In this document: positions 47,124 to 57,733 of the stretch, one piece after another | Layout of the letters: the number at the start of each line of letters is the position of its first letter | Position numbering within the stretch: position 1 is the stretch's first letter | Assembly: GCA_036496605.1 (NCBI GenBank) | Contig: DASXKV010000025.1 | Location: forward strand, 62,001-126,000 | Origin: Gemmatimonadaceae bacterium | GTDB taxonomy: Bacteria > Gemmatimonadota > Gemmatimonadetes > Gemmatimonadales > Gemmatimonadaceae | DNA length: 64,000 nt | Reading direction: 5' to 3' | The notes under the pieces: model-generated | What the model was told of the DNA's origin: nothing | Database searches by the model: none | Seen by the model: only the letters and a program-made list of their open reading frames with translations | Made by a program: the position numbers and the translations under genes

Positions 47124-49619
47124 ATGCGGAACGTGAAGCTGGCGCTGCGGACCCTGTTCCGAGCCCCGTTCGTCACCATTGTCGCGATCCTGTCACTCGC
47201 CCTGGGCATCGGGGCGAACGCGGCCATCTACTCCCTCTTCGACCAAATCCTGCTCCAGCCGCTTCCCGTAGCGCAGCCCGATCGACTCGTCAATTTCGTC
47301 GGCCCCGGTCCCCAGTATGGCTCGAACTCCTGCAATTCGGCCGGCGACTGCGACGAAGTGTTCTCGTATCCGATGTTCCGCGATCTCGAGCGAGCGAAGA
47401 CCGCCTTCAGCGGCATCGCGGGACACTTCCTGTTCGGCGCCAACGTCGCGATGGCGGGGAAGACGGCGATCAACGGGCGTGGCGTGTTCGTCTCCGGATC
47501 GTATTTCCCGTTGCTCGGCATCCGCCCCGCGGTCGGCCGGCTGCTGACGCCTAACGACGACCAGACTGTCGGGGCCCACTATGTCGTCGTGCTGAGCTAC
47601 GACTACTGGGCGAACCAGCTCGGCGCCGACCCCAGCGTCGCTGGGCGGCAGCTCCAGGTGAACGGCCACCCGATGACGATTCTCGGCGTGGCGCCCGAAG
47701 GGTTCTTCGGTACGACGAAAGGCGAGCGGCCGTACGTCTTCGTGCCGATCACGATGCGGGCGGTGATGAACACCGGCTTCACCGGCTTCGAGGATCGGAC
47801 AAGCTATTGGATCTATCTCTTCGGGCGGCTCAAGCCCGGTGCCACCATCGCGCAGGGCTCGGCGTCGATCAACACCGTCTACTCGCACCTCATCAACGAT
47901 ATCGAGGTGCCGTTGCAGAAAGGGATGAGCGCGAAGACGCTCGCACAGTTCAAGGCGAAGAAGCTCGTTCTCAACGATGGCCGGAAGGGGCAGAGCTCGA
48001 TGATACGGACGTCGCGGACGCCGCTCACACTCCTCTTCTCGATCACCGCGATCGTCCTGTTGATCGCGTGCGCGAACATCGCGAACCTGTTGTTGGCGCG
48101 CGCGGCGAACCGCACGATGGAGATGGCGGTGCGGCTCTCGTTAGGTGCGACGCGCCGGCAGCTCATCGTGCAGGTGCTCACCGAGTCCGTGCTGCTAGCG
48201 ATCCTCGGCGGCCTGGCGAGCGTGCTCGTGGCGCACTGGACGCTCGTGGGGATTACGGCGATGCTGCCACCGCAGGAAGGCGTCAACATGCAGCTTCAGT
48301 TGAGCGTGCCCGTGCTGGTCTTCACGGCGTTGGTGTCGCTCGCAACGGGACTCGCCTTCGGCATCGTACCGGCGCTGCAAAGCACGCGTCCCGACCTTGT
48401 GACGGAGCTGCGCAACAATTCCGGGAAGCTCACCGGAGGTCGCGGCGCCGCGCGATTCCGCAGCAGCCTCGTGACCGCGCAGATCGCGCTCTCGATGGCG
48501 CTCCTCATCGCGGCGGGGCTGTTCATCGAGAGTCTGCGCAACATCAGCCGCGTGGACCTCGGGATCAGGATCGACAACGTGGTGTCGTTCGCGATCTCGC
48601 CCGGCAAGAATGCGTACGACTCGGTGCGTACCGCCACACTGTACGCGCGTGTTGGGGAGGAGCTGGCAGCACTGCCCGGCGTCTCTGGGGTCACGTCCGC
48701 AACCGTGCCGTTGCTCGCCGGCAGCAATTGGGGAACGAGCGTGTCGGTCGAAGGCTTTCACAAGGATCTCGACACCGATGCCGGGTCGCGCTTCAACGTC
48801 GTCGGCCCCGACTACTTTCACGTCATCGGCGTGCCGCTCGTCGCCGGCCGTGATTTCACCGCTGCTGACAACGCGAACGGCCTTCGCGTGGCGATCGTGA
48901 ACGAGGCATTCGCCAAGAAATTCAATCTAGGCGTAAACGCCGTCGGCAAACGTCTCTCCGTTGGTAATGATTCGCTCAACGTAACAATTGTCGGCCTGGC
49001 GAAGGACGCCAAGTACTCGCAGGTGAAGGACAAGATCCCTCCGGTGTTTGTGCAGCCTTACCGTCAGATGGGAAGCATGGGCCAGATGTATTTCTATGTC
49101 CGGAGTACGCTGCCAACCGAGCAGCTTCTTCAGGCGATTCCGAGAGTCATCAAGAAGCTCGATGCGAATCTCCCGGTCGAGTCGTTGACGACCCTACCGC
49201 AGCAGGTGCGGAACAACGTGTTCCTGGATCGGATGATCAGCACCCTCTCCGCAGCGTTCGCGGTGCTGGCAACGCTCCTCGCCGCGGTCGGACTCTACGG
49301 CGTGCTCGCCTATTCCGTCGCGCAGCGTACGCGCGAGATCGGGGTGCGGATGGCGTTAGGCGCGACCGCGGGTGCCGTCAGCCGCATGGTGCTGCGGCAG
49401 GTGGGAATCATGACGCTGATCGGCGGCGTGGTCGGCATCGCGGGCGCGATCGTGTTGGGCAGAGGGGCGCAGTCGCTGCTCTATGAGCTCAAGGGCTGGG
49501 ATCCGATGGTGATCGCGCTCTCCGCTATCCTGCTGACGCTGGTCGCCCTCGGCGCGGCGCTGGTCCCTGCGCTTCGCGCCTCGCATGTCGATCCGATGCA
49601 AGCGTTGCGATACGAGTAA
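47124..49619 (+). CDS. ADOP-type MacB/FtsX permease (831 aa)
   Basis: MRNVKLALRTLFRAPFVTIVAILSLALGIGANAAIYSLFD; coupling loops NRTMEMAVRLSLGATRRQLIVQ and QRTREIGVRMALGATAGAVSR; ends RASHVDPMQALRYE. The octamer (or its CGTTAGGT variant) encodes the L-G of both loops (48139 and 49354). Convergent with the next permease with 17 bp between the stops. A stretch SNSCNSAGDCDEVF in the first core adds an unusual Cys pair. Confidence 0.88.
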   Translation: MRNVKLALRTLFRAPFVTIVAILSLALGIGANAAIYSLFDQILLQPLPVAQPDRLVNFVGPGPQYGSNSCNSAGDCDEVFSYPMFRDLERAKTAFSGIAGHFLFGANVAMAGKTAINGRGVFVSGSYFPLLGIRPAVGRLLTPNDDQTVGAHYVVVLSYDYWANQLGADPSVAGRQLQVNGHPMTILGVAPEGFFGTTKGERPYVFVPITMRAVMNTGFTGFEDRTSYWIYLFGRLKPGATIAQGSASINTVYSHLINDIEVPLQKGMSAKTLAQFKAKKLVLNDGRKGQSSMIRTSRTPLTLLFSITAIVLLIACANIANLLLARAANRTMEMAVRLSLGATRRQLIVQVLTESVLLAILGGLASVLVAHWTLVGITAMLPPQEGVNMQLQLSVPVLVFTALVSLATGLAFGIVPALQSTRPDLVTELRNNSGKLTGGRGAARFRSSLVTAQIALSMALLIAAGLFIESLRNISRVDLGIRIDNVVSFAISPGKNAYDSVRTATLYARVGEELAALPGVSGVTSATVPLLAGSNWGTSVSVEGFHKDLDTDAGSRFNVVGPDYFHVIGVPLVAGRDFTAADNANGLRVAIVNEAFAKKFNLGVNAVGKRLSVGNDSLNVTIVGLAKDAKYSQVKDKIPPVFVQPYRQMGSMGQMYFYVRSTLPTEQLLQAIPRVIKKLDANLPVESLTTLPQQVRNNVFLDRMISTLSAAFAVLATLLAAVGLYGVLAYSVAQRTREIGVRMALGATAGAVSRMVLRQVGIMTLIGGVVGIAGAIVLGRGAQSLLYELKGWDPMVIALSAILLTLVALGAALVPALRASHVDPMQALRYE

Positions 49620-49636: not shown

Positions 49637-52090
49637 CTAGCCGCGCAGCGCTATTGTGGGATCCACACGCGCCGCGCGCCAGGATGGAATCAGCGCCGCC
49701 GTCAACGCGATGGCAAGCAATGCGAGTGATACACCGACGAACGTCGCCGGATCGCCCGCGGTCACGCGATACAGCATCGCCGTCAGCAATCGTGCGAACA
49801 GCGATCCGCCCACCACCCCGAACACGATGCCCACCATCGTCAGCTTCACGGCGCCGGCGGCGATCTGCATGAGGATGTCGGCCCGACGAGCGCCCAGTGC
49901 GATGCGCACGCCGATCTCCCGCCTCCGCTGCGCCACGCCGTAGGCGATCAGGCCGTACAAACCGACCGCCGCGATCGTCATCGTCACGATCGCCAGGACG
50001 GCGAGCACGCCCGCCATCATCGTGAACGCCGAGACGTGTCGCGCCTGCATCTCGATCATCGTCATCATGTCACCGACGGCGACGCTCGGTTCGGTGCGCG
50101 CGACGACGCTCCGAACCGCGTCGCGCATCGCTGCCGGGTCGCCATCCGTCCACACCGCGACCGACGCGTATGAGCTCGGCGACTGATAGATCGACCGGTA
50201 CACGGTATTTCGCAGTGGCTCGTCGAGCCCACCGTGATACACGTTCGACGCGACGCCCACGACCGTCCACTGTGCGTCGCCGATCACCACCACTCGGCCG
50301 ATGGCGCTCTCGTGCGGCCATATCGCGTTCGCCATGTAGCGGTTGACGACGATCGCGCGCTGCGCCGTCGGCGACGCTTCGTCCTGCGCGCCGATCATTC
50401 GCCCTTCCTCGATGTGCATGCCGGCGGCTTCCGCGTAGCCAGGTGTGACATGCTGATCGTTCGCGCTCAACCCATGTCCGTTCGGTTCAGGCGGTCGGCT
50501 TGGAATCCGGAACAACACCCCCGAGTAGTTGTTGCTCAACGGCGTCGTCGACGTGACGCCCCCTGCGCGAATACCGGGCTCTCCGTGGAGATTCGCGTTG
50601 AGCCGTCGATAGAAATCGACCTGCGCCGAATCGTTCATCTGTAGCGGCAGTGTCAGGTGCATCACCAGCGCGTGGTCGAGCCGTACTCCCGCATCACCGC
50701 GAATCATGTTGCGCACACTGCGCGTGAGTAACGTTGCGCCGGTGAGCAATACGAGCGCGATGCTCACCTCGAGCACGATGAGCGTTGCTCGAACGCGCGT
50801 GCTCCGCACGCCACCCGTGCTCGCGCGTCCTCCCTCCGATAGCAAACCGGCGAGATTGACGCGTGTCGCGCGCAGTACCGGCAGTGCGGCGAACGCCATC
50901 GTCGCCAGGACCGCGGCCGCGAACGCGAACGCCAATGTGCGTCCGTCGAGTCCGAGCCGCGCCCATCCCGGGATGAACGCGGAGAAATTCGCGGGGATTG
51001 CATCGCGCATCGCGTGCACGCCCCACCATGCGAGCGCCGCGCCGGCCGCACCGGCGACGAGCGACAACAGCAGTGATTCGGCGAGCAGATGGCGCGCGAG
51101 ACGCCAGCGGCGCACGCCGAGTGCGGTGCGCAGTGCCAATTCGTGGCGGCGCGCTGCGAGACGCGACAGCGCGAGGTTCGCGGCGCTCATGCAGGCCGCG
51201 AGAAACACGAGAAACGCGGCGATCGCAGAAATCTGCACGAGAATCGAGACGTCATCGGTATGATAGGCGGCGATTGGACGCGCGCGCAGCACCCAACCGC
51301 TGTCGGTCTTCGGCGATTCGCGCACCAACTGCGCGCCGATGGTGTTCACTTCGGCCGCTGCCTTGGCAAACGACGTCCCCGGCGCAATCCGCGCGAAGAC
51401 GTCGTAATACCGCGACGCGTAATTCGAGGCGTCCTCGGCCCGGAGGGCATGCGGCATATATACGTCTGCTGCAGTCGGAAAGATCACGTCCTTGCCAAGT
51501 ACGCCGGTCACGGTGAACGGTCGCTCGCCGAGCGTGATCGTGGAATCGACTACTCCACGGCTGCCACCGAACCGTCGCTGCCAGAGGTCATATGAGAGTA
51601 TTACAAAGTCCGGCGCGCCAACGTGACCCGCCTCTCTGGGGAATCCGCGTCCCATGGCGAACGGGGCTTCGATCGTCTCGAAAGCGTTCGGGGAGACTTC
51701 GAATCCCTTGAGTGCCTCGCTTCCGTTCGACGAGCGCAGCGCAACGCTCGAATTGGACACGCCGATCGCGATGATCGACGGCGCGCGAGTCTCGAGCGCT
51801 GCGAGCGCCGCGGGCGATGTCTGCGTGCAGTCGACACCGCACGACGCGTTGGCTTGCGTGATCCAGAGCAGGCGGTCCGATGGCAGACGGGGGAACGGGT
51901 TGTGGATGGCGAGGGAGAAACTGTAGACCGCCGACGCCGCGCCGATGCCCATTGCCAGCGTGCTCACCACGGCCGCCGCGTAGAGCGGACTACGCGTAAT
52001 CGCGCGCAGTCCGTGGCGGACGTCCTGCTCGAGCTGCTCGAGCCATGTCCATTGCCACACGTCGCGCACTGTCTCGCTCACGTTGGTCAT
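49637..52090 (-). CDS. ADOP-type MacB/FtsX permease (about 817 aa)
   Basis: Start at MTNVSETVRDVWQWTWLEQLEQDVRHGLRAI; the frame is open 13 codons upstream. Coupling loops ARRHELALRTALGVRRWRLAR and QRRREIGVRIALGARRADILMQ; ends RAARVDPTIALRG. A CGVDCTQT segment lies in the first core. Divergent from the PadR gene at 52348, with four PadR-type dyads in the 257-bp gap, so probably controlled by that PadR. Confidence 0.88.
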   Translation of the reverse strand: MTNVSETVRDVWQWTWLEQLEQDVRHGLRAITRSPLYAAAVVSTLAMGIGAASAVYSFSLAIHNPFPRLPSDRLLWITQANASCGVDCTQTSPAALAALETRAPSIIAIGVSNSSVALRSSNGSEALKGFEVSPNAFETIEAPFAMGRGFPREAGHVGAPDFVILSYDLWQRRFGGSRGVVDSTITLGERPFTVTGVLGKDVIFPTAADVYMPHALRAEDASNYASRYYDVFARIAPGTSFAKAAAEVNTIGAQLVRESPKTDSGWVLRARPIAAYHTDDVSILVQISAIAAFLVFLAACMSAANLALSRLAARRHELALRTALGVRRWRLARHLLAESLLLSLVAGAAGAALAWWGVHAMRDAIPANFSAFIPGWARLGLDGRTLAFAFAAAVLATMAFAALPVLRATRVNLAGLLSEGGRASTGGVRSTRVRATLIVLEVSIALVLLTGATLLTRSVRNMIRGDAGVRLDHALVMHLTLPLQMNDSAQVDFYRRLNANLHGEPGIRAGGVTSTTPLSNNYSGVLFRIPSRPPEPNGHGLSANDQHVTPGYAEAAGMHIEEGRMIGAQDEASPTAQRAIVVNRYMANAIWPHESAIGRVVVIGDAQWTVVGVASNVYHGGLDEPLRNTVYRSIYQSPSSYASVAVWTDGDPAAMRDAVRSVVARTEPSVAVGDMMTMIEMQARHVSAFTMMAGVLAVLAIVTMTIAAVGLYGLIAYGVAQRRREIGVRIALGARRADILMQIAAGAVKLTMVGIVFGVVGGSLFARLLTAMLYRVTAGDPATFVGVSLALLAIALTAALIPSWRAARVDPTIALRG

Positions 52091-52139
52091 GTTGCCGAAT
52101 CTCCGTTTGCCGAAAACGCGTGGCGGCATGGGCGCGATA

Positions 52140-52173
52140 GTAGAGGCTCTACCACTGACGGTAGACGCTCTAC
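52140..52173. promoter_or_regulatory. Two PadR-type dyads near the permease start
   Basis: GTAGAGGCTCTAC (52140-52152) and GTAGACGCTCTAC (52161-52173), spaced 21 bp start to start (two helical turns), 50-83 bp upstream of the permease start. The same motif recurs at 52304 and 52327. Confidence 0.6.
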
Positions 52174-52303
52174 CAACGGTCGTCCGCGGCGGCAGGTTTC
52201 AACGGTCCAACGGCCCCGTTGACATGGGCTTCACCGCCACCCGATGGGGGCGGTCAAGGGAGCGCTTCAACTTCCAATGCCCATTGACTTCCGGGACCAA
52301 GTT

Positions 52304-52339
52304 GTAGACACTCTACTTAACGTAATGTAGGCCGTCTAC
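52304..52339. promoter_or_regulatory. Two PadR-type dyads before padR
   Basis: GTAGACACTCTAC (52304-52316) and GTAGGCCGTCTAC (52327-52339; with flanks ATGTAGGCCGTCTACAT, the ATGT...ACAT form known for PadR boxes). The second ends 8 bp before the padR ATG, fitting autorepression. Confidence 0.65.
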
Positions 52340-52347
52340 ATACACGC

Positions 52348-52710
52348 ATGCCAAGTAAAGATCCCGCGACCTCACGCCTCGAGGTGCTTCAGGGCACGCT
52401 CGACTTCATCGTGCTCCAGGCGCTGCGCTGGGGACCATGCCACGGCTACGGCCTCCTCCATCTCATTCGCTCGCAGTCGCAGAATGTGCTCCAGGTCGAG
52501 ACGGGCTCCCTCTATCCCGCTCTCCAGCGCCTGATGCGTCAGGGCGCGATCACCCCTGAATGGGGTGTATCGGACAAGGATCGGCGAGTTCGCATGTACA
52601 AGCTCACGGCAAAAGGACGGAAGCGACTGGCCGCCGAGCGATCGCGGTGGGAACAACTGAGTCAGGCGATTGCGGGCATGATGCTCCCGCCGGCTAAGGA
52701 AGAACGATGA
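52348..52710 (+). CDS. PadR-family transcriptional regulator
   Basis: 120 residues: LEVLQGTLDFIVLQALRWGPCHGYGLL, QVETGSLYPALQRLMRQGAITPEWG and DKDRRVRMYKLTAKGRKRL. Its stop overlaps the start of the phosphotriesterase-like gene (ATGA). Likely repressor of itself, the downstream genes and the divergent permease through the GTAGA-N3-TCTAC sites. Confidence 0.9.
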   Translation: MPSKDPATSRLEVLQGTLDFIVLQALRWGPCHGYGLLHLIRSQSQNVLQVETGSLYPALQRLMRQGAITPEWGVSDKDRRVRMYKLTAKGRKRLAAERSRWEQLSQAIAGMMLPPAKEER

Positions 52711-53732
52711 GCACTCCCCTCACGCGTCGCGATGCGATTCGCATCCTTGGTGCCGGCGCCGGCATGGCCGCGGTTGGCGCGACCTATCGTGACTTATACG
52801 CCGCGACCCAAAATCGAACAATCATCCGCACAATCCACGAAGACATCCCGCCCGATCGTCTCACCGGCATAACGCTCGTTCACGAGCACCTGTCGCTATC
52901 GAGCCGCGACGGGTCCCCGATGTTTTACGACGACGTCGGGCTGATTGCCGACGAAGTGAAGGCGTGCGCGAATGACGGGGTCAGCTGCATCGTTGACACG
53001 GGCAACGCCGACCTCGGTCGCAAGATCGATTCGCTTCGAACCATCGCGACTCGATCCGGCATGCACATCGTGGCATCGGGCGGCCGATATCGGAAAGTGC
53101 GCTATCCACCAGATGTGTTCCAGAAGACGGCCGATCAGATCGCCGACGACCTCGTCGAGCAAGCAAATTTGGAACGCTGGGGGGCGCTCGGCGAAATCGG
53201 GACGAGCGTGGATGTTCCCACGGATCCCGTCGAGCGCAAAGTGCTACAAGCCGTGGCGAAGGCGCATGCGCGGACCGGGCTGCCGATCATCACGCACGTG
53301 GATAACGGCTGCGCGCAGTGCGCGCTCGATCAGGTCGACATCTTCGAGGCGGCCGGCGCGGATCTCCATCATGTCGTGATTGGCCATTTGAACGACATCA
53401 AAGATCAACCGACGGTCGTCCCCATCGCGATTGCTAAGCGCGGCGCCTACCTCGGCTTCGATCATTCCGGCAGACCAGACGATCCCCGTCTCGACGAATA
53501 CGTTCGAACGCTTCGTGCAATCATCGATGCCGGTTTCACCGATCGCATTTGCCTATCGTCGGACTTTGGCAATGCGAAATATTTGCGAAGGAATGGCGGA
53601 CCGGGCATCGACATGATCATGACCACGATCGTGCCCAAGCTCCGGCGAGCCGGAGTTCCCGACAACACGCTGCATACGATTCTCGTCGAGAACCCGCGGC
53701 GCGTTCTCGCATTTGAGCCAAAGGCCGCGTAG
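52707..53732 (+). CDS. Phosphotriesterase-family amidohydrolase, Tat-exported
   Basis: 341 residues. Twin-arginine signal TRRDAIRILGAGAGMAAVGA. Metal ligands of the PTE family: LVHEHL (residues 59 and 61), GEIGTS (Glu where true PTEs have a carboxylated Lys; also seen in PHP-type homologues), ITHVD, VIGHLND and LSSDFG. A hydrolase of an organophosphate, lactone or related ester in the periplasm. Co-translated with PadR. Confidence 0.85.
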   Translation: MSTPLTRRDAIRILGAGAGMAAVGATYRDLYAATQNRTIIRTIHEDIPPDRLTGITLVHEHLSLSSRDGSPMFYDDVGLIADEVKACANDGVSCIVDTGNADLGRKIDSLRTIATRSGMHIVASGGRYRKVRYPPDVFQKTADQIADDLVEQANLERWGALGEIGTSVDVPTDPVERKVLQAVAKAHARTGLPIITHVDNGCAQCALDQVDIFEAAGADLHHVVIGHLNDIKDQPTVVPIAIAKRGAYLGFDHSGRPDDPRLDEYVRTLRAIIDAGFTDRICLSSDFGNAKYLRRNGGPGIDMIMTTIVPKLRRAGVPDNTLHTILVENPRRVLAFEPKAA

Positions 53733-53752: not shown

Positions 53753-54682
53753 ATGCGGATCTCGCTTTTCGTCGCCGTCGCTGTCGTCGCATACGGCGCG
53801 TTGGCTTCGCGCGGTGACGCGCAGCAGGCGCGAGCAGCATCGGGCCGGGCACCAGGCGCCACCTTTCGCGACTGCGATGACTGTCCTGAGATGGTCGTCG
53901 TCGGCGCCGGTCATTTCGTGATGGGTTCGTCGAGCGAGGAAAAGACGTGGGCGGCATCGCACGGCGGTAACCTGGCGTCCGTCGCGGACGAGGCTCCGCA
54001 GCACGACGTTCGGATCAAATCATTTGCCATTGGCAAGTTCCCAGTCACGCGCGGCGAGTATGCGCTCTTCGCCCGTGCGACCGGCCACGCGTACGCCGAT
54101 GGCTGCGGTTACGATGGCGCGAAGTGGGATAAGCGTCCGACCGCGACATGGGAGTCGCCTGGCTATGCGCAGACGGATCGCGATCCGGTAGTCTGCGTGA
54201 GCTGGAATGATGCGCGCGCGTACGTCGACTGGCTCAACACCAAGTTCCGTCGCGAATCCGTGAACGACGGCTCGGGCCCTTATCGGCTGCCGACGGAAGC
54301 CGAATGGGAGTATGCCGCGCGCGCAGGAACGACGACGCGATTCTGGTGGGGCGACGCCGAGGAAGCGGCGAACTATGCGTGGTACGCTTCAAACGCCGGA
54401 GGCGCGACGCACGCTGTCGGGACGCGGACGGCGAATCCCTTCGGCCTCTTCGACATGAGCGGCAACGTTTGGCAGTGGACGCAGGACTGCTACGAAGACA
54501 GCTACGCTGGTGCCCCGAGCGATGGCGCATCGGTGGAGCGGCCGGCGCCGTGCCTGCGCGTGGACCGCGGCGGCTCGTGGCACCAGCCCGCGTGGCTGCT
54601 TCGGCCGGCCGCGCGCGAGCGAAATCCGGAAGATTATCGTTACGCCATGCTCGGATTCCGCGTGGCGCGTTCAGAACGATGA
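53753..54682 (+). CDS. Secreted FGE-sulfatase (SUMF1) domain protein
   Basis: 309 residues with signal peptide (ISLFVAVAVVAYGALASRGDAQ). The formylglycine-generating-enzyme fold is visible: MVVVGAGHFVMGSSSEE, IGKFPVTRGEYALFAR, PVVCVSWNDARAYVDWL, YRLPTEAEWEYAARAG, NPFGLFDMSGNVWQWTQDCY, RGGSW and GFRVARS. No sulfatase gene adjoins, so it may be a binding or other-function member. 20 bp after the PTE-like gene, probably the same operon. Confidence 0.88.
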   Translation: MRISLFVAVAVVAYGALASRGDAQQARAASGRAPGATFRDCDDCPEMVVVGAGHFVMGSSSEEKTWAASHGGNLASVADEAPQHDVRIKSFAIGKFPVTRGEYALFARATGHAYADGCGYDGAKWDKRPTATWESPGYAQTDRDPVVCVSWNDARAYVDWLNTKFRRESVNDGSGPYRLPTEAEWEYAARAGTTTRFWWGDAEEAANYAWYASNAGGATHAVGTRTANPFGLFDMSGNVWQWTQDCYEDSYAGAPSDGASVERPAPCLRVDRGGSWHQPAWLLRPAARERNPEDYRYAMLGFRVARSER

Positions 54683-54776: not shown

Positions 54777-57389
54777 CTATTCTGCCCGGACGGCGATCAC
54801 CGGATCGACTCCAGTCGCGCGCCACATGGGAATGACGCACGCGACAACCGCGACTGCGAGCAACAAAACGGCGCCCGCGCTAAAGGCGAATGGATCGAGG
54901 CGCGGCACGCCGTACAGCACGCCCTCAATGAGCCGCGTGCCCGCCACCCCGCCGATGAGTCCGACGACGATACCGATCACGGCGAGCCGCAGCCCGTCGC
55001 CGACGACGAGCCGCGCAATCGACGCGCGCGTCGCGCCTAACGTCATCCGGACACCGATCTCGCGCGTGCGCTGGGCGACGCTGTACGAGATCACACCGAA
55101 GAGACCAATCGCGGCGAGCAGGACGCCGAGCGACGCGAAGATGATCATGATCCGCATCGCGAACCGCGGCTCGGCGGCGGTCTGATCGATCTTGTCGCGC
55201 ACGCTCTCGATCACGGGCTTGGAGCCCGACGGCTGTATCGACGCTGCGAGGTGCGCCAGCGATTCCGCCGAGGAGTTGTTTGACAGCCTAACGTACAGCG
55301 TTACCATGCCGGGAGCGTTCGGGCCGATCGGTTGATAAAGCCGCGGCTGAGGCGCCGGCACGAGCAGGTTGTCGACGACGTCCGGCACGACGCCAATGAC
55401 GGTCATCCAATCTTTCAGAAATCCTATTGGACGCGAGTTGCGGAATCGGCGACCGAGCGGACTCCCGTGGGGCGCGAGCATACGTGCGAGTGTGGTGTTG
55501 ACGATCACCTCGTTGCCCGATCGCGACCCGTCGTCGAAGATCCGGCCAGCGAGGAGCGGAATGCCGAGGACAGTGAAATAGTCGGCATCAACGTTATCCA
55601 CGCCAATTGGCAAAGGCGCTTGATTGACGGTCGCCCGATCCGGCGTCTGGAGAGTCGCGAACACGCCGTGTCCACCGTCGTCCACCGTGATACGTTGCGC
55701 TCCGGGGATGGCCTTGGCGCGCTCGCGCACCAGATCGACCAGCGACGCCTGCTGTGCCGCCGCCGGCATTCGCGGCGGGCGAAAGGAGACCGAGTACAAT
55801 CCGCCGGCATCGAAGCCGAGCTGCTTCGCTTCCAGAGTATACAACGCATGCGTGAGGAGCAGCGCGCCAACCAGCAGGGTGGTCGACAGGCCGATTTCGC
55901 CGATGACGAGTGCGCCACGCAGGCGACGTCCGGCCATCGCCGTGCCTGACGAGTTGGCGCGCAACGCAAGACCCGGATCTCGTCGCGCGTTGCGCAGCGC
56001 GGAAGCGAGGCCGATCGCCAGTCCCGCGCCGATCGCCAAGAGCGCCGTCAGGGAGATGACGCTATCCTCGTTAGGCCCGGCCGCGAGTGCAGCGAGCGTC
56101 TGCGGCCGCGCCGCTTGCATCACGTGCAGTCCGATCCATGCGACGGCTGTCGCGAAGGCGCCGCCGATCACGGCGATGACGAGCGTTTCGGTGACGAGCT
56201 GCCTGACGAGTCGCCACCGGCTGGCGCCCAACGCGTGCCGAACGGCGATCTCGCGTTGGCGTGCGGCGCCGCGGGCGAGCAGCAGGTGCGCGACGTTCGT
56301 GCACGCGACGAGCAGCAAGAGCGCGACGGCGCCGGTGAGCATCGCCAGTGCGCCGCGAAACGAGAGCATGTCCTGTGGACGCTGGAGGCGCATGTGATAG
56401 CGCATGTCACGCCACCAGGACGAATCGGTCGCTGCACGAGTCAGAATGCCCGCGAGCTCCTCGGTCGCCGCATCACGTGGGACGCCGGGTTTGAGCCGCA
56501 CCGCCACGGCATCGACGAGATCATCATCGTAAGGCACCCAGATGTCGATGCGTCCGTCCCTGGCGTCCGGCAGCGTTACCGAGGACGGCATCACGCCGAT
56601 GATCGTGCGCGAATCTCCGTTGAGCTTGACGACGCTGCCGATGACGCTGGTCGACGCGCCGAACTGCTGCCGCCACATGTCCTCGCCGAGCATAGCCACG
56701 ACGCCCGGCCCGTTCGGCCTTGCGTCCTCGGCGGCAAAGCTCCGCCCGATCACAGGATGCGCGCCCGCGAGCGGGAGGAAATCCGTATCGATGATCGCCA
56801 CATGCACCGGAATCGTATCGGGCGCGGTACCGAGCATGCCGAGCCGGAAGTGGAAGGCAGCCGCGACCTCGATCGATCGAGACTCCTTTCGGAACGCGTC
56901 GACCACGTGGGCAGAGAAGGGTGATGCCAGCTGGCGCTCGGGGACGTCGAACAGCCGGCGGAAGACGAACACGCGCGATGCATCTGGATAGCGGATCGGC
57001 CTAACGATCAACCGGTCGGCGACGCGGAACACGGCCGTCGTCGCGCCGACGCCGAGAGCAATCGTGAGGAGCGCGACCGTCGTCCAGCCGGGCGTGCGGC
57101 CTAACGAGCGAAGCGTGTAGCGAATATCGGCGCGCACGCCCTCGAGGACATCTGCGTTGCGCGCGTGCGTTGCGCGCACCTTGCCGAGCTCGACGCACTC
57201 CTCGCGGGCAGCGTCGACGTCGCCGAGTCGTGCCGCGACGGCGCGGCGGGCTTCGTCTTCGGTCATGCCGCGCGCGACGAACTCTTCGACGCGCATGTCG
57301 GCGTGGAAGCGGAGCTCATCGTCGACGTCGCCACGGATATCGGGACGCCAGAAACGGAGATAGCGGCGCCAAGGTGGAGTTTTCGTCAT
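54777..57389 (-). CDS. ADOP-type MacB/FtsX permease with prefix domain (870 aa)
   Basis: ATG 57389 overlaps the PadR stop (ATGA). Prefix domain 1-85 (DVDDELRFHADMRVEEFVARGMTEDEARRAV), then TM1 and core; coupling loops AARQREIAVRHALGASRWRLVRQ and QRTREIGVRMTLGATRASIAR; ends RATGVDPVIAVRAE. Five octamers lie inside, one again on the L-G of the last coupling loop (55035). PadR-permease operon. Confidence 0.9.
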   Translation of the reverse strand: MTKTPPWRRYLRFWRPDIRGDVDDELRFHADMRVEEFVARGMTEDEARRAVAARLGDVDAAREECVELGKVRATHARNADVLEGVRADIRYTLRSLGRTPGWTTVALLTIALGVGATTAVFRVADRLIVRPIRYPDASRVFVFRRLFDVPERQLASPFSAHVVDAFRKESRSIEVAAAFHFRLGMLGTAPDTIPVHVAIIDTDFLPLAGAHPVIGRSFAAEDARPNGPGVVAMLGEDMWRQQFGASTSVIGSVVKLNGDSRTIIGVMPSSVTLPDARDGRIDIWVPYDDDLVDAVAVRLKPGVPRDAATEELAGILTRAATDSSWWRDMRYHMRLQRPQDMLSFRGALAMLTGAVALLLLVACTNVAHLLLARGAARQREIAVRHALGASRWRLVRQLVTETLVIAVIGGAFATAVAWIGLHVMQAARPQTLAALAAGPNEDSVISLTALLAIGAGLAIGLASALRNARRDPGLALRANSSGTAMAGRRLRGALVIGEIGLSTTLLVGALLLTHALYTLEAKQLGFDAGGLYSVSFRPPRMPAAAQQASLVDLVRERAKAIPGAQRITVDDGGHGVFATLQTPDRATVNQAPLPIGVDNVDADYFTVLGIPLLAGRIFDDGSRSGNEVIVNTTLARMLAPHGSPLGRRFRNSRPIGFLKDWMTVIGVVPDVVDNLLVPAPQPRLYQPIGPNAPGMVTLYVRLSNNSSAESLAHLAASIQPSGSKPVIESVRDKIDQTAAEPRFAMRIMIIFASLGVLLAAIGLFGVISYSVAQRTREIGVRMTLGATRASIARLVVGDGLRLAVIGIVVGLIGGVAGTRLIEGVLYGVPRLDPFAFSAGAVLLLAVAVVACVIPMWRATGVDPVIAVRAE

Positions 57390-57733
57390 GTGCGAAGCGG
57401 TGGGGCTTCGAGCGCAGTGAACACGGCGTTGGCGAAGCGCGTCCAGGTCGCCGTCTCGAGCCGAAGCTGTGCGCGCCCCTTGGAGGTGAGCGTGTAGTAC
57501 TTCGCGCGGCGATTGTTCTCGGACGCGCCCCACTCGGCGGCGATCCAGCCACGCGTCTCGAGGCGGTGGAGGGCAGGGTAGAGCGAGCCTTCTTCGATGC
57601 GCAGGACGTCGTCGGTGGACTGCTCGATCCATCGCGCGACAGCGTAGCCGTGACTCGGCCCCCAACTCACGGCTTTGAGGATCAGGAGATCGAGTGTCCC
57701 GCGCAGAACTTCGACGTTATGCGGCTGGGCCAT
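57386..57733 (-). CDS. PadR-family transcriptional regulator
   Basis: 115 residues: VLRGTLDLLILKAVSWGPSHGYAVA, RIEEGSLYPALHRLETRGWIAAEWG and ENNRRAKYYTLTSKGRAQL. First gene of the PadR-ADOP pair, with an inverted repeat 12 bp upstream. Confidence 0.9.
   Translation of the reverse strand: MAQPHNVEVLRGTLDLLILKAVSWGPSHGYAVARWIEQSTDDVLRIEEGSLYPALHRLETRGWIAAEWGASENNRRAKYYTLTSKGRAQLRLETATWTRFANAVFTALEAPPLRT

Follow-up and report, generated by a model that had tools for sequence, protein, structure and literature searches.

The window (the whole 64,000-nucleotide stretch of a Gemmatimonadaceae genome that was analysed) contains two divergent genes, one for a PadR regulator of the acidobacterial type and one for an ADOP permease. 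Both proteins pass the curated cut-offs of their families: the PadR reaches 128.7 bits for TIGR03433 (padR_acidobact; cut-off 101.8), and the permease 684.4 bits for TIGR03434 (cut-off 622.3), with two stretches that each match MacB_PCD plus FtsX. The arrangement differs from the usual TIGR03433/TIGR03434 pairs, since a phosphotriesterase-family gene comes after this padR and the ADOP lacks a padR of its own. PadRs are designated below by residues 51 and 52, the window protein being E-T. The features are these:

49637-52129, minus strand: ADOP permease gene, 830-aa open reading frame, TIGR03434; its first four codons (MPPR) match those of a padR that was probably lost
52119-52122, minus strand: putative deletion junction, CACG microhomology; 480 bp absent relative to contig 3 of genome G016 (G016:C3)
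52140-52152, no strand: dyad A, GTAGAGGCTCTAC, exact GTAGA-N3-TCTAC; permease side; outer bases TAG/TGG, as in the class of E-H PadRs
52161-52173, no strand: dyad B, GTAGACGCTCTAC, exact GTAGA-N3-TCTAC; permease side; outer bases CGG/TGG, as in the class of E-H PadRs
52284-52289, plus strand: TTGACT, presumed -35-like element of padR (in orthologs, by eye, dyad 1 has a TTGAC upstream)
52304-52316, no strand: dyad C, GTAGACACTCTAC, exact GTAGA-N3-TCTAC; padR side; predicted operator of the adjacent E51-T52 PadR
52327-52339, no strand: dyad D, GTAGGCCGTCTAC, GTAGG-N3-TCTAC, one mismatch; padR side, 8 bp 5' of the padR start codon
52348-52710, plus strand: padR, 120 aa, acidobacterial type, TIGR03433
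52498-52503, plus strand: codons for E51 and T52, the residues at which the predicted recognition helix begins and which track variable operator bases
52707-53732, plus strand: phosphotriesterase-family gene (PF02126), 4-bp overlap with padR
53753-54682, plus strand: FGE-sulfatase-domain gene (PF03781), the next gene on the padR strand

The padR and phosphotriesterase-family genes are probably co-transcribed, and the 4-bp overlap together with gene order suggests an operon that also includes the FGE-sulfatase-domain gene. The phosphotriesterase-family gene has a match in only two of the 25 genomes searched, its own included; other hits are 32-37% identical.

Four dyads in the divergent promoter region

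A first-pass annotation had described four dyads here. Three of them are exact and one has a single mismatch, and both the positions and the centre-to-centre spacings (21 bp for A-B; 23 bp for C-D) are as it gave them. It had also seen the frame of known PadR boxes, ATGT...ACAT, in one dyad. That frame is present: dyad D widens to ATGTAGGCCGTCTACAT, which is ATGT-N9-ACAT. However, the arms of the canonical box (ATGT-N8-10-ACAT) surround D only, being absent from A, B, and C, and the frame is one variant among many, as outer bases differ between paralogs.

Mononucleotide shuffling of the region (52130-52347, 218 bp) produced one or more exact sites in 3 of 20,000 trials, against three sites observed. 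A loose search of the whole window, allowing two mismatches, found 19 sites where 10.7 were expected; this enrichment is only mild, so the signal resides in the exact, paired sites. The slightly shorter TAGA-N3-TCTA occurs at eight places in the 5.97-Mb genome, and six of these precede a TIGR03433 padR gene by no more than about 260 bp: three at the window locus, one before C25:43871, and two before the padR on C30. With padR-upstream stretches making up 0.25% of the genome, the binomial probability comes to 6.5e-15 when sites are counted and 1.5e-7 when clusters are.

Across 41 genomes, the exact GTAGAN3TCTAC sequence is found at 24 places, 17 of which adjoin a padR. The other seven, with no detected padR nearby, all lack a second dyad in the surrounding 70 bp or so; the paired structure is padR-specific. 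(These seven were considered as further orphan operators and set aside, none being paired.) The earlier reading of the dyads as PadR operators is supported by the sequence evidence, as is their arrangement in tandem pairs about two helical turns apart.

Repeats were noted near two other sites in this genome (G000). On C16 (L043), a single ATGTAGCATTTCTACAT dyad is separated from the start of padR C16:19594 by a tandem array of (CAACCCT)n-like repeats, located some 150 bp upstream of the gene. At G000:C33:214878 (L065), an exact GTAGACCCTCTAC lies away from any padR, in surroundings that resemble GAGGGTAGAG/CTCTACCC-type repeats; by eye, these also precede other padR genes.

Predicted tandem operators and a residue-base code

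Fifty-seven padR genes in this genome score above the TIGR03433 cut-off, and many have an upstream dyad pair with a common T-n-G-A core and other outer bases. The exact window motif was rejected as a general padR operator, as most paralogs differ from it in these outer bases. Within this genome the unguided tandem-dyad score is weak (18/57 upstreams at p<=1/31). In a sample of 205 deduplicated padR upstreams from the genomes studied, a score of at least 9 is reached by 73 (36%), compared with 0.9% of local shuffles. The half-site columns over these upstreams reveal T at -5 (83%), G at -3 (87%), and A at -2 (62%), with variable bases from -8 to -6. A core-weighted score that carries no base preference at -8 to -6 places 100 of the 205 above the 99% null; the same core model does so for 37 of 74 held-out upstreams, collected in phylum-wide searches with four PadR queries. 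Only 25 of the 57 paralogs in this genome exceed that threshold, so many operators here are either unseen or unlike the model. The operator signal emerges clearly only when further genomes are added and the score takes the core into account.

Assigned pairs fall into two spacing classes. The long class has 94 pairs, with 33 bp as the commonest spacing. Of its 81 promoters with an identified TTGAC or TTGC, 74 have the TTGA of the -35 box as the left half-site of dyad 1. Because this box feeds the core, the core was tabulated again from the three remaining half-sites, and also within the short class; it persists in both. In the short class (42 pairs; spacing at most 27 bp), TTGAC precedes the centre of dyad 1 by 24 bp in 14 of 37. 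In the favoured model, each acidobacterial-type PadR binds a tandem dyad pair in its own promoter, with half-site nnn-T-n-G-A: the family has T, G, and A in common, and the bases at -8 to -6 and at -4 vary between paralogs.

Which protein residues follow these variable bases was analysed in 137 regulator-operator pairs, 100 for training and 37 from the held-out loci. Residue numbering is that of the window PadR, residue 52 corresponding to alignment column 42; the recognition helix comprises residues 52-64 in an AlphaFold2 model (mean pLDDT 87). In the training pairs, mutual information with the operator is highest at residue 52, among all columns, for -7 and for -6; for -4 it peaks at residue 51. 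The counts below exclude pairs without a clear majority base at the column concerned:

C at -7: 34/35 training and 17/17 held-out pairs when residue 52 is E; 3/31 and 0/16 when it is T, Q, or H
G at -6: 23/23 training and 4/4 held-out pairs when residue 52 is T or H; 0/28 and 1/18 when it is E
A at -4: 47/52 training and 19/20 held-out pairs when residue 51 is E or D; 4/15 and 1/9 when it is G or N

The held-out lineages are not independent of the training set, as only 15 of the 37 proteins are below 70% identity to every training protein, and two below 60%. Operators assigned without base preference follow the same trend (C at -7 with E in 36/37). In the closest disjoint contrasts, the prediction for -7 holds in 43 of 47; for -4, A stands against C in 15 of 24, and no contrast goes the opposite way. 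Among identity-matched pairs (0.40-0.60), residue 52 ranks first of 97 columns for -7 and fourth of 98 for -6, while residue 51 ranks fifth of 96 for -4, below G6, G23, Y24, and Y46 (alignment columns). Shared ancestry is a caveat, as only 19 training representatives are left below 60% identity; with these, residue 52 remains at the top for -7, though not for -6, and residue 51 is outside the top six columns for -4.

As a correlation between sequences, the relation of residue 52 to base -7 is firm; that to base -6 is likely, and that of residue 51 to base -4 is probable. Overall, the first helix residue (T52) tracks -7 and -6, and the one preceding it (E51) tracks -4.

Applied to the padR side of the window, the code fits dyads C and D, which lie in the promoter of the E-T padR itself. 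Gemmatimonadaceae PadRs 57-77% identical to the window protein keep two tandem TGTAGRC-N-TCTAC-type dyads downstream of TTGAC, mostly 21 to 26 bp apart. The proposal of autoregulation gains from both observations, and the search for loss of the motif in orthologous regions does not overturn it on this side, as the ortholog upstreams retain the pair. The identification of C/D as the autoregulatory operator is supported; through it, the window PadR would repress its own promoter and probably, along with padR, the downstream phosphotriesterase-family and FGE-sulfatase-domain genes.

Origin of dyads A and B

The first-pass annotation had one PadR repressing both sides of the divergent promoter. 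Models of the outer bases (-8 to -6) were built for two operator classes: E-T-ALQ, with eight members (the window left out); and E-H/D-H, with seven. Leave-one-out scoring gives the correct sign for 8/8 and 7/7 operators, respectively. Scored for E-T over E-H, C+D receives +19.2 bits and A+B -15.0 bits; without the G016:C3 ortholog, the values are +18.1 and -14.7. The A/B difference derives mostly from the outermost base, -8. Among 12 divergent padR-ADOP arrangements, the window alone has an additional permease-side pair, and three orthologs from the same genus (L027, L070, L071) have padR-side dyads only; the two-sided arrangement was therefore rejected as a conserved feature.

Synteny that supports this classification of A/B was found only after it had been made. 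Contig 3 of G016, from the same family, carries an E-H padR preceded by a dyad pair at 21-bp spacing, as in A/B, and followed after 3 bp by an ADOP that shares 81% identity with the window permease. On its minus strand, the window matches this operator and the start codon of the padR (CATGCCGCCACGCG), past which the alignment jumps straight into the 5' coding sequence of the G016 ADOP. The absent 480 bp, from CACG to CACG, contain 113 of the 117 padR codons along with the first 43 ADOP codons. Their absence keeps the frame: the open reading frame from 52129 opens with the MPPR of padR and runs on into the permease. Between the window and G016, substitutions affect one of 28 half-site positions in A/B, compared with four of 12 positions in centres and linker (p 0.022).

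E-H padRs are also found elsewhere, in nine of 298 genomes at E<=1e-38 with this one counted. Behind six further E-H padRs are ADOPs 47-64% identical to that of the window. Among the matches to the window permease listed from 25 genomes, the remaining ADOPs reach at most 37%, apart from an 87% relative in G002. Most operators of these further E-H padRs have TGG/TAG-TAGA half-sites (printed upstreams, by eye). The G002 relative (C234), the nearest to the window ADOP, has no dyads and no padR within the 340 bp that extend to the contig end. The G016 locus (L287) consists of two head-to-head padR genes, each before an ADOP; the region shared by the two is the counterpart of the stretch that faces the E-T padR in the window.

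These comparisons lead to a specific model, in which the region is a head-to-head junction of two regulatory units of the acidobacterial PadR/ADOP type. An E-H padR would formerly have lain between A/B and the ADOP, and an in-frame deletion of 480 bp (the reading adopted here for the difference from G016) would have taken that padR together with the N-terminal prefix of the permease, fusing the padR start codon to the permease and leaving the ADOP operator without its cis regulator. It is likely that C/D is the operator of the window PadR and A/B the retained operator of a deleted E-H PadR. (An ADOP start at 52090, behind a Shine-Dalgarno-like GGAG, is doubtful: the same bases are coding in the G016 ADOP, so the former padR start at 52129 appears at least as likely.) The permease may now be free of repression or, speculatively, be repressed in trans through the H-type paralogs that remain.

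That A/B are served in trans by such a paralog is compatible with the deletion, and is a serious possibility that falls just short of being probable. The genome has two H-type candidates, an E-H PadR (G000:C67:5322-5624) and a D-H PadR (G000:C48:104244-104543). The C67 protein has a recognition helix, EHGSLYPALHRL, identical to that of the G016:C3 PadR, and an operator, TAGTAGACATTCGACTA, similar though not identical to A/B. The pair upstream of the C48 gene scores 4.9, below threshold, which favours a trans role. The near-constancy of the A/B half-sites since G016 also counts in its favour, but may predate the deletion. The C48 gene (L020) lies directly behind an ADOP, and its product is possibly a trans-acting paralog. 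The candidates for acting on A/B are thus the C67 E-H PadR, the C48 D-H PadR, nobody, or, weakly, the neighbouring PadR.

Cooperative binding of all four dyads by the adjacent PadR alone, repressing both itself and the divergent ADOP, has proximity in its favour, and the GTAGA-N3-TCTAC core is common to all four dyads (with one mismatch in D). Moreover, at -7 the nearest E-T orthologs have G or A besides T, which would leave room for the adjacent PadR to bind A/B as well. Nevertheless, the opposite class scores of A+B (15 bits toward E-H) and C+D (19 bits toward E-T), the homology of A/B to an E-H padR operator, and the confinement of permease-side dyads to the window among the 12 divergent pairs make this reading unlikely, and two-sided repression by a single PadR is probably wrong.

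Still less likely is an assembly artefact, with an intact E-H padR in the real genome. The assembly is in 70 contigs, and a 4-bp microhomology marks the junction; yet this junction is exactly in frame (480 mod 3 = 0) within an uninterrupted 830-aa open reading frame, and elsewhere in the assembly no E-H padR is as close to that of G016:C3 (best 66-67% identity).

Finally, the dyads are scarcely credible as palindromes arisen by chance, as hairpins in a transcript, or as binding sites for some unrelated regulator: the five-base arms are short, and 7 of the 24 exact sites are not near a detected padR, but the other 17 adjoin one, the non-padR sites are unpaired, and the outer bases follow the PadR recognition helix.

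The ADOP prefix and known systems

In this genome, at least 29 of the 57 padR genes have an ADOP directly downstream (69 ADOPs compared). Among the best 67 of 168 ADOP matches, every one of the 32 that directly follow a padR has an open frame extending at least 76 residues beyond the family match, compared with 13 of the remaining 35 that have an extension of more than 60; open-frame length is only a proxy for the prefix. The NCBIfam model perm_prefix_1 scores 27.8 bits in the G016 ADOP, just below its cut-off of 30, and has no match in the window ADOP (49637-52129); Pfam has no match to the perm_prefix_1 region. Two further ADOP permeases are encoded in the window: one at 47124-49619 has no prefix hit and no adjacent padR; the other, at 54777-57665, matches perm_prefix_1 with 52 bits and adjoins padR C25:119410.

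A survey proposing a HAAS-PadR dyad describes HAAS fused to FtsX/MacB_PCD, among others, and always beside a stand-alone PadR (PMC11237479). Similarly, PadRs here adjoin FtsX/MacB_PCD permeases with an N-terminal cytoplasmic prefix, whereas the window ADOP, which has neither a perm_prefix_1 match nor its own padR, appears to have lost both in one deletion. A broader reading, offered tentatively, is that PadR/ADOP units are dozens of one-gene switches, largely kept apart by the 51/52 code, and that the deletion rewired the permease to a trans paralog; the prefix would have been removed in the same step as the PadR because the two work only as a couple.

Literature searches found no operator for an acidobacterial-type (TIGR03433) PadR. 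Operators of PadR-s1/s2 members such as LmrR and bcPadR1 are described as ATGT-N8-10-ACAT (PMC3506622), and LftR recognizes a partial palindrome within its own promoter (PMC6457526). With the first of these, the present systems share winged helix-turn-helix PadR dimers, inverted repeats in the regulators' own promoters, autoregulation, and a recognition helix alpha-3 with the EGTLYPxLxRLE motif. In contrast, the common part here is T-n-G-A-N3-T-C-n-A rather than ATGT/ACAT; dyads form tandem pairs at about 22 or 33 bp; and outer bases vary with residues 51 and 52. For the MerR and LacI families, mutual information between regulator and operator columns identified recognition-helix residues 1, 2, and 6 as most important (PMC5045206); the MerR paper makes no mention of PadR. 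The present analysis differs in its application to PadR, with a held-out test and with synteny backing a predicted operator class.

Together, these results equip this large PadR family with a predicted set of operators and a residue-to-base code that can be tested, making the targets of dozens of paralogs per genome predictable from sequence and showing a way in which paralogous repressors might coexist in one cell without cross-talk. The window would represent a natural experiment on circuit rewiring, with the operator kept and both the repressor and the permease prefix lost. It also carries a caution: opposing sites in a divergent promoter do not necessarily belong to the neighbouring regulator. 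If the rewiring proposal is true, a deletion can leave behind an operator that is addressed to a class of regulators, not to its neighbour.
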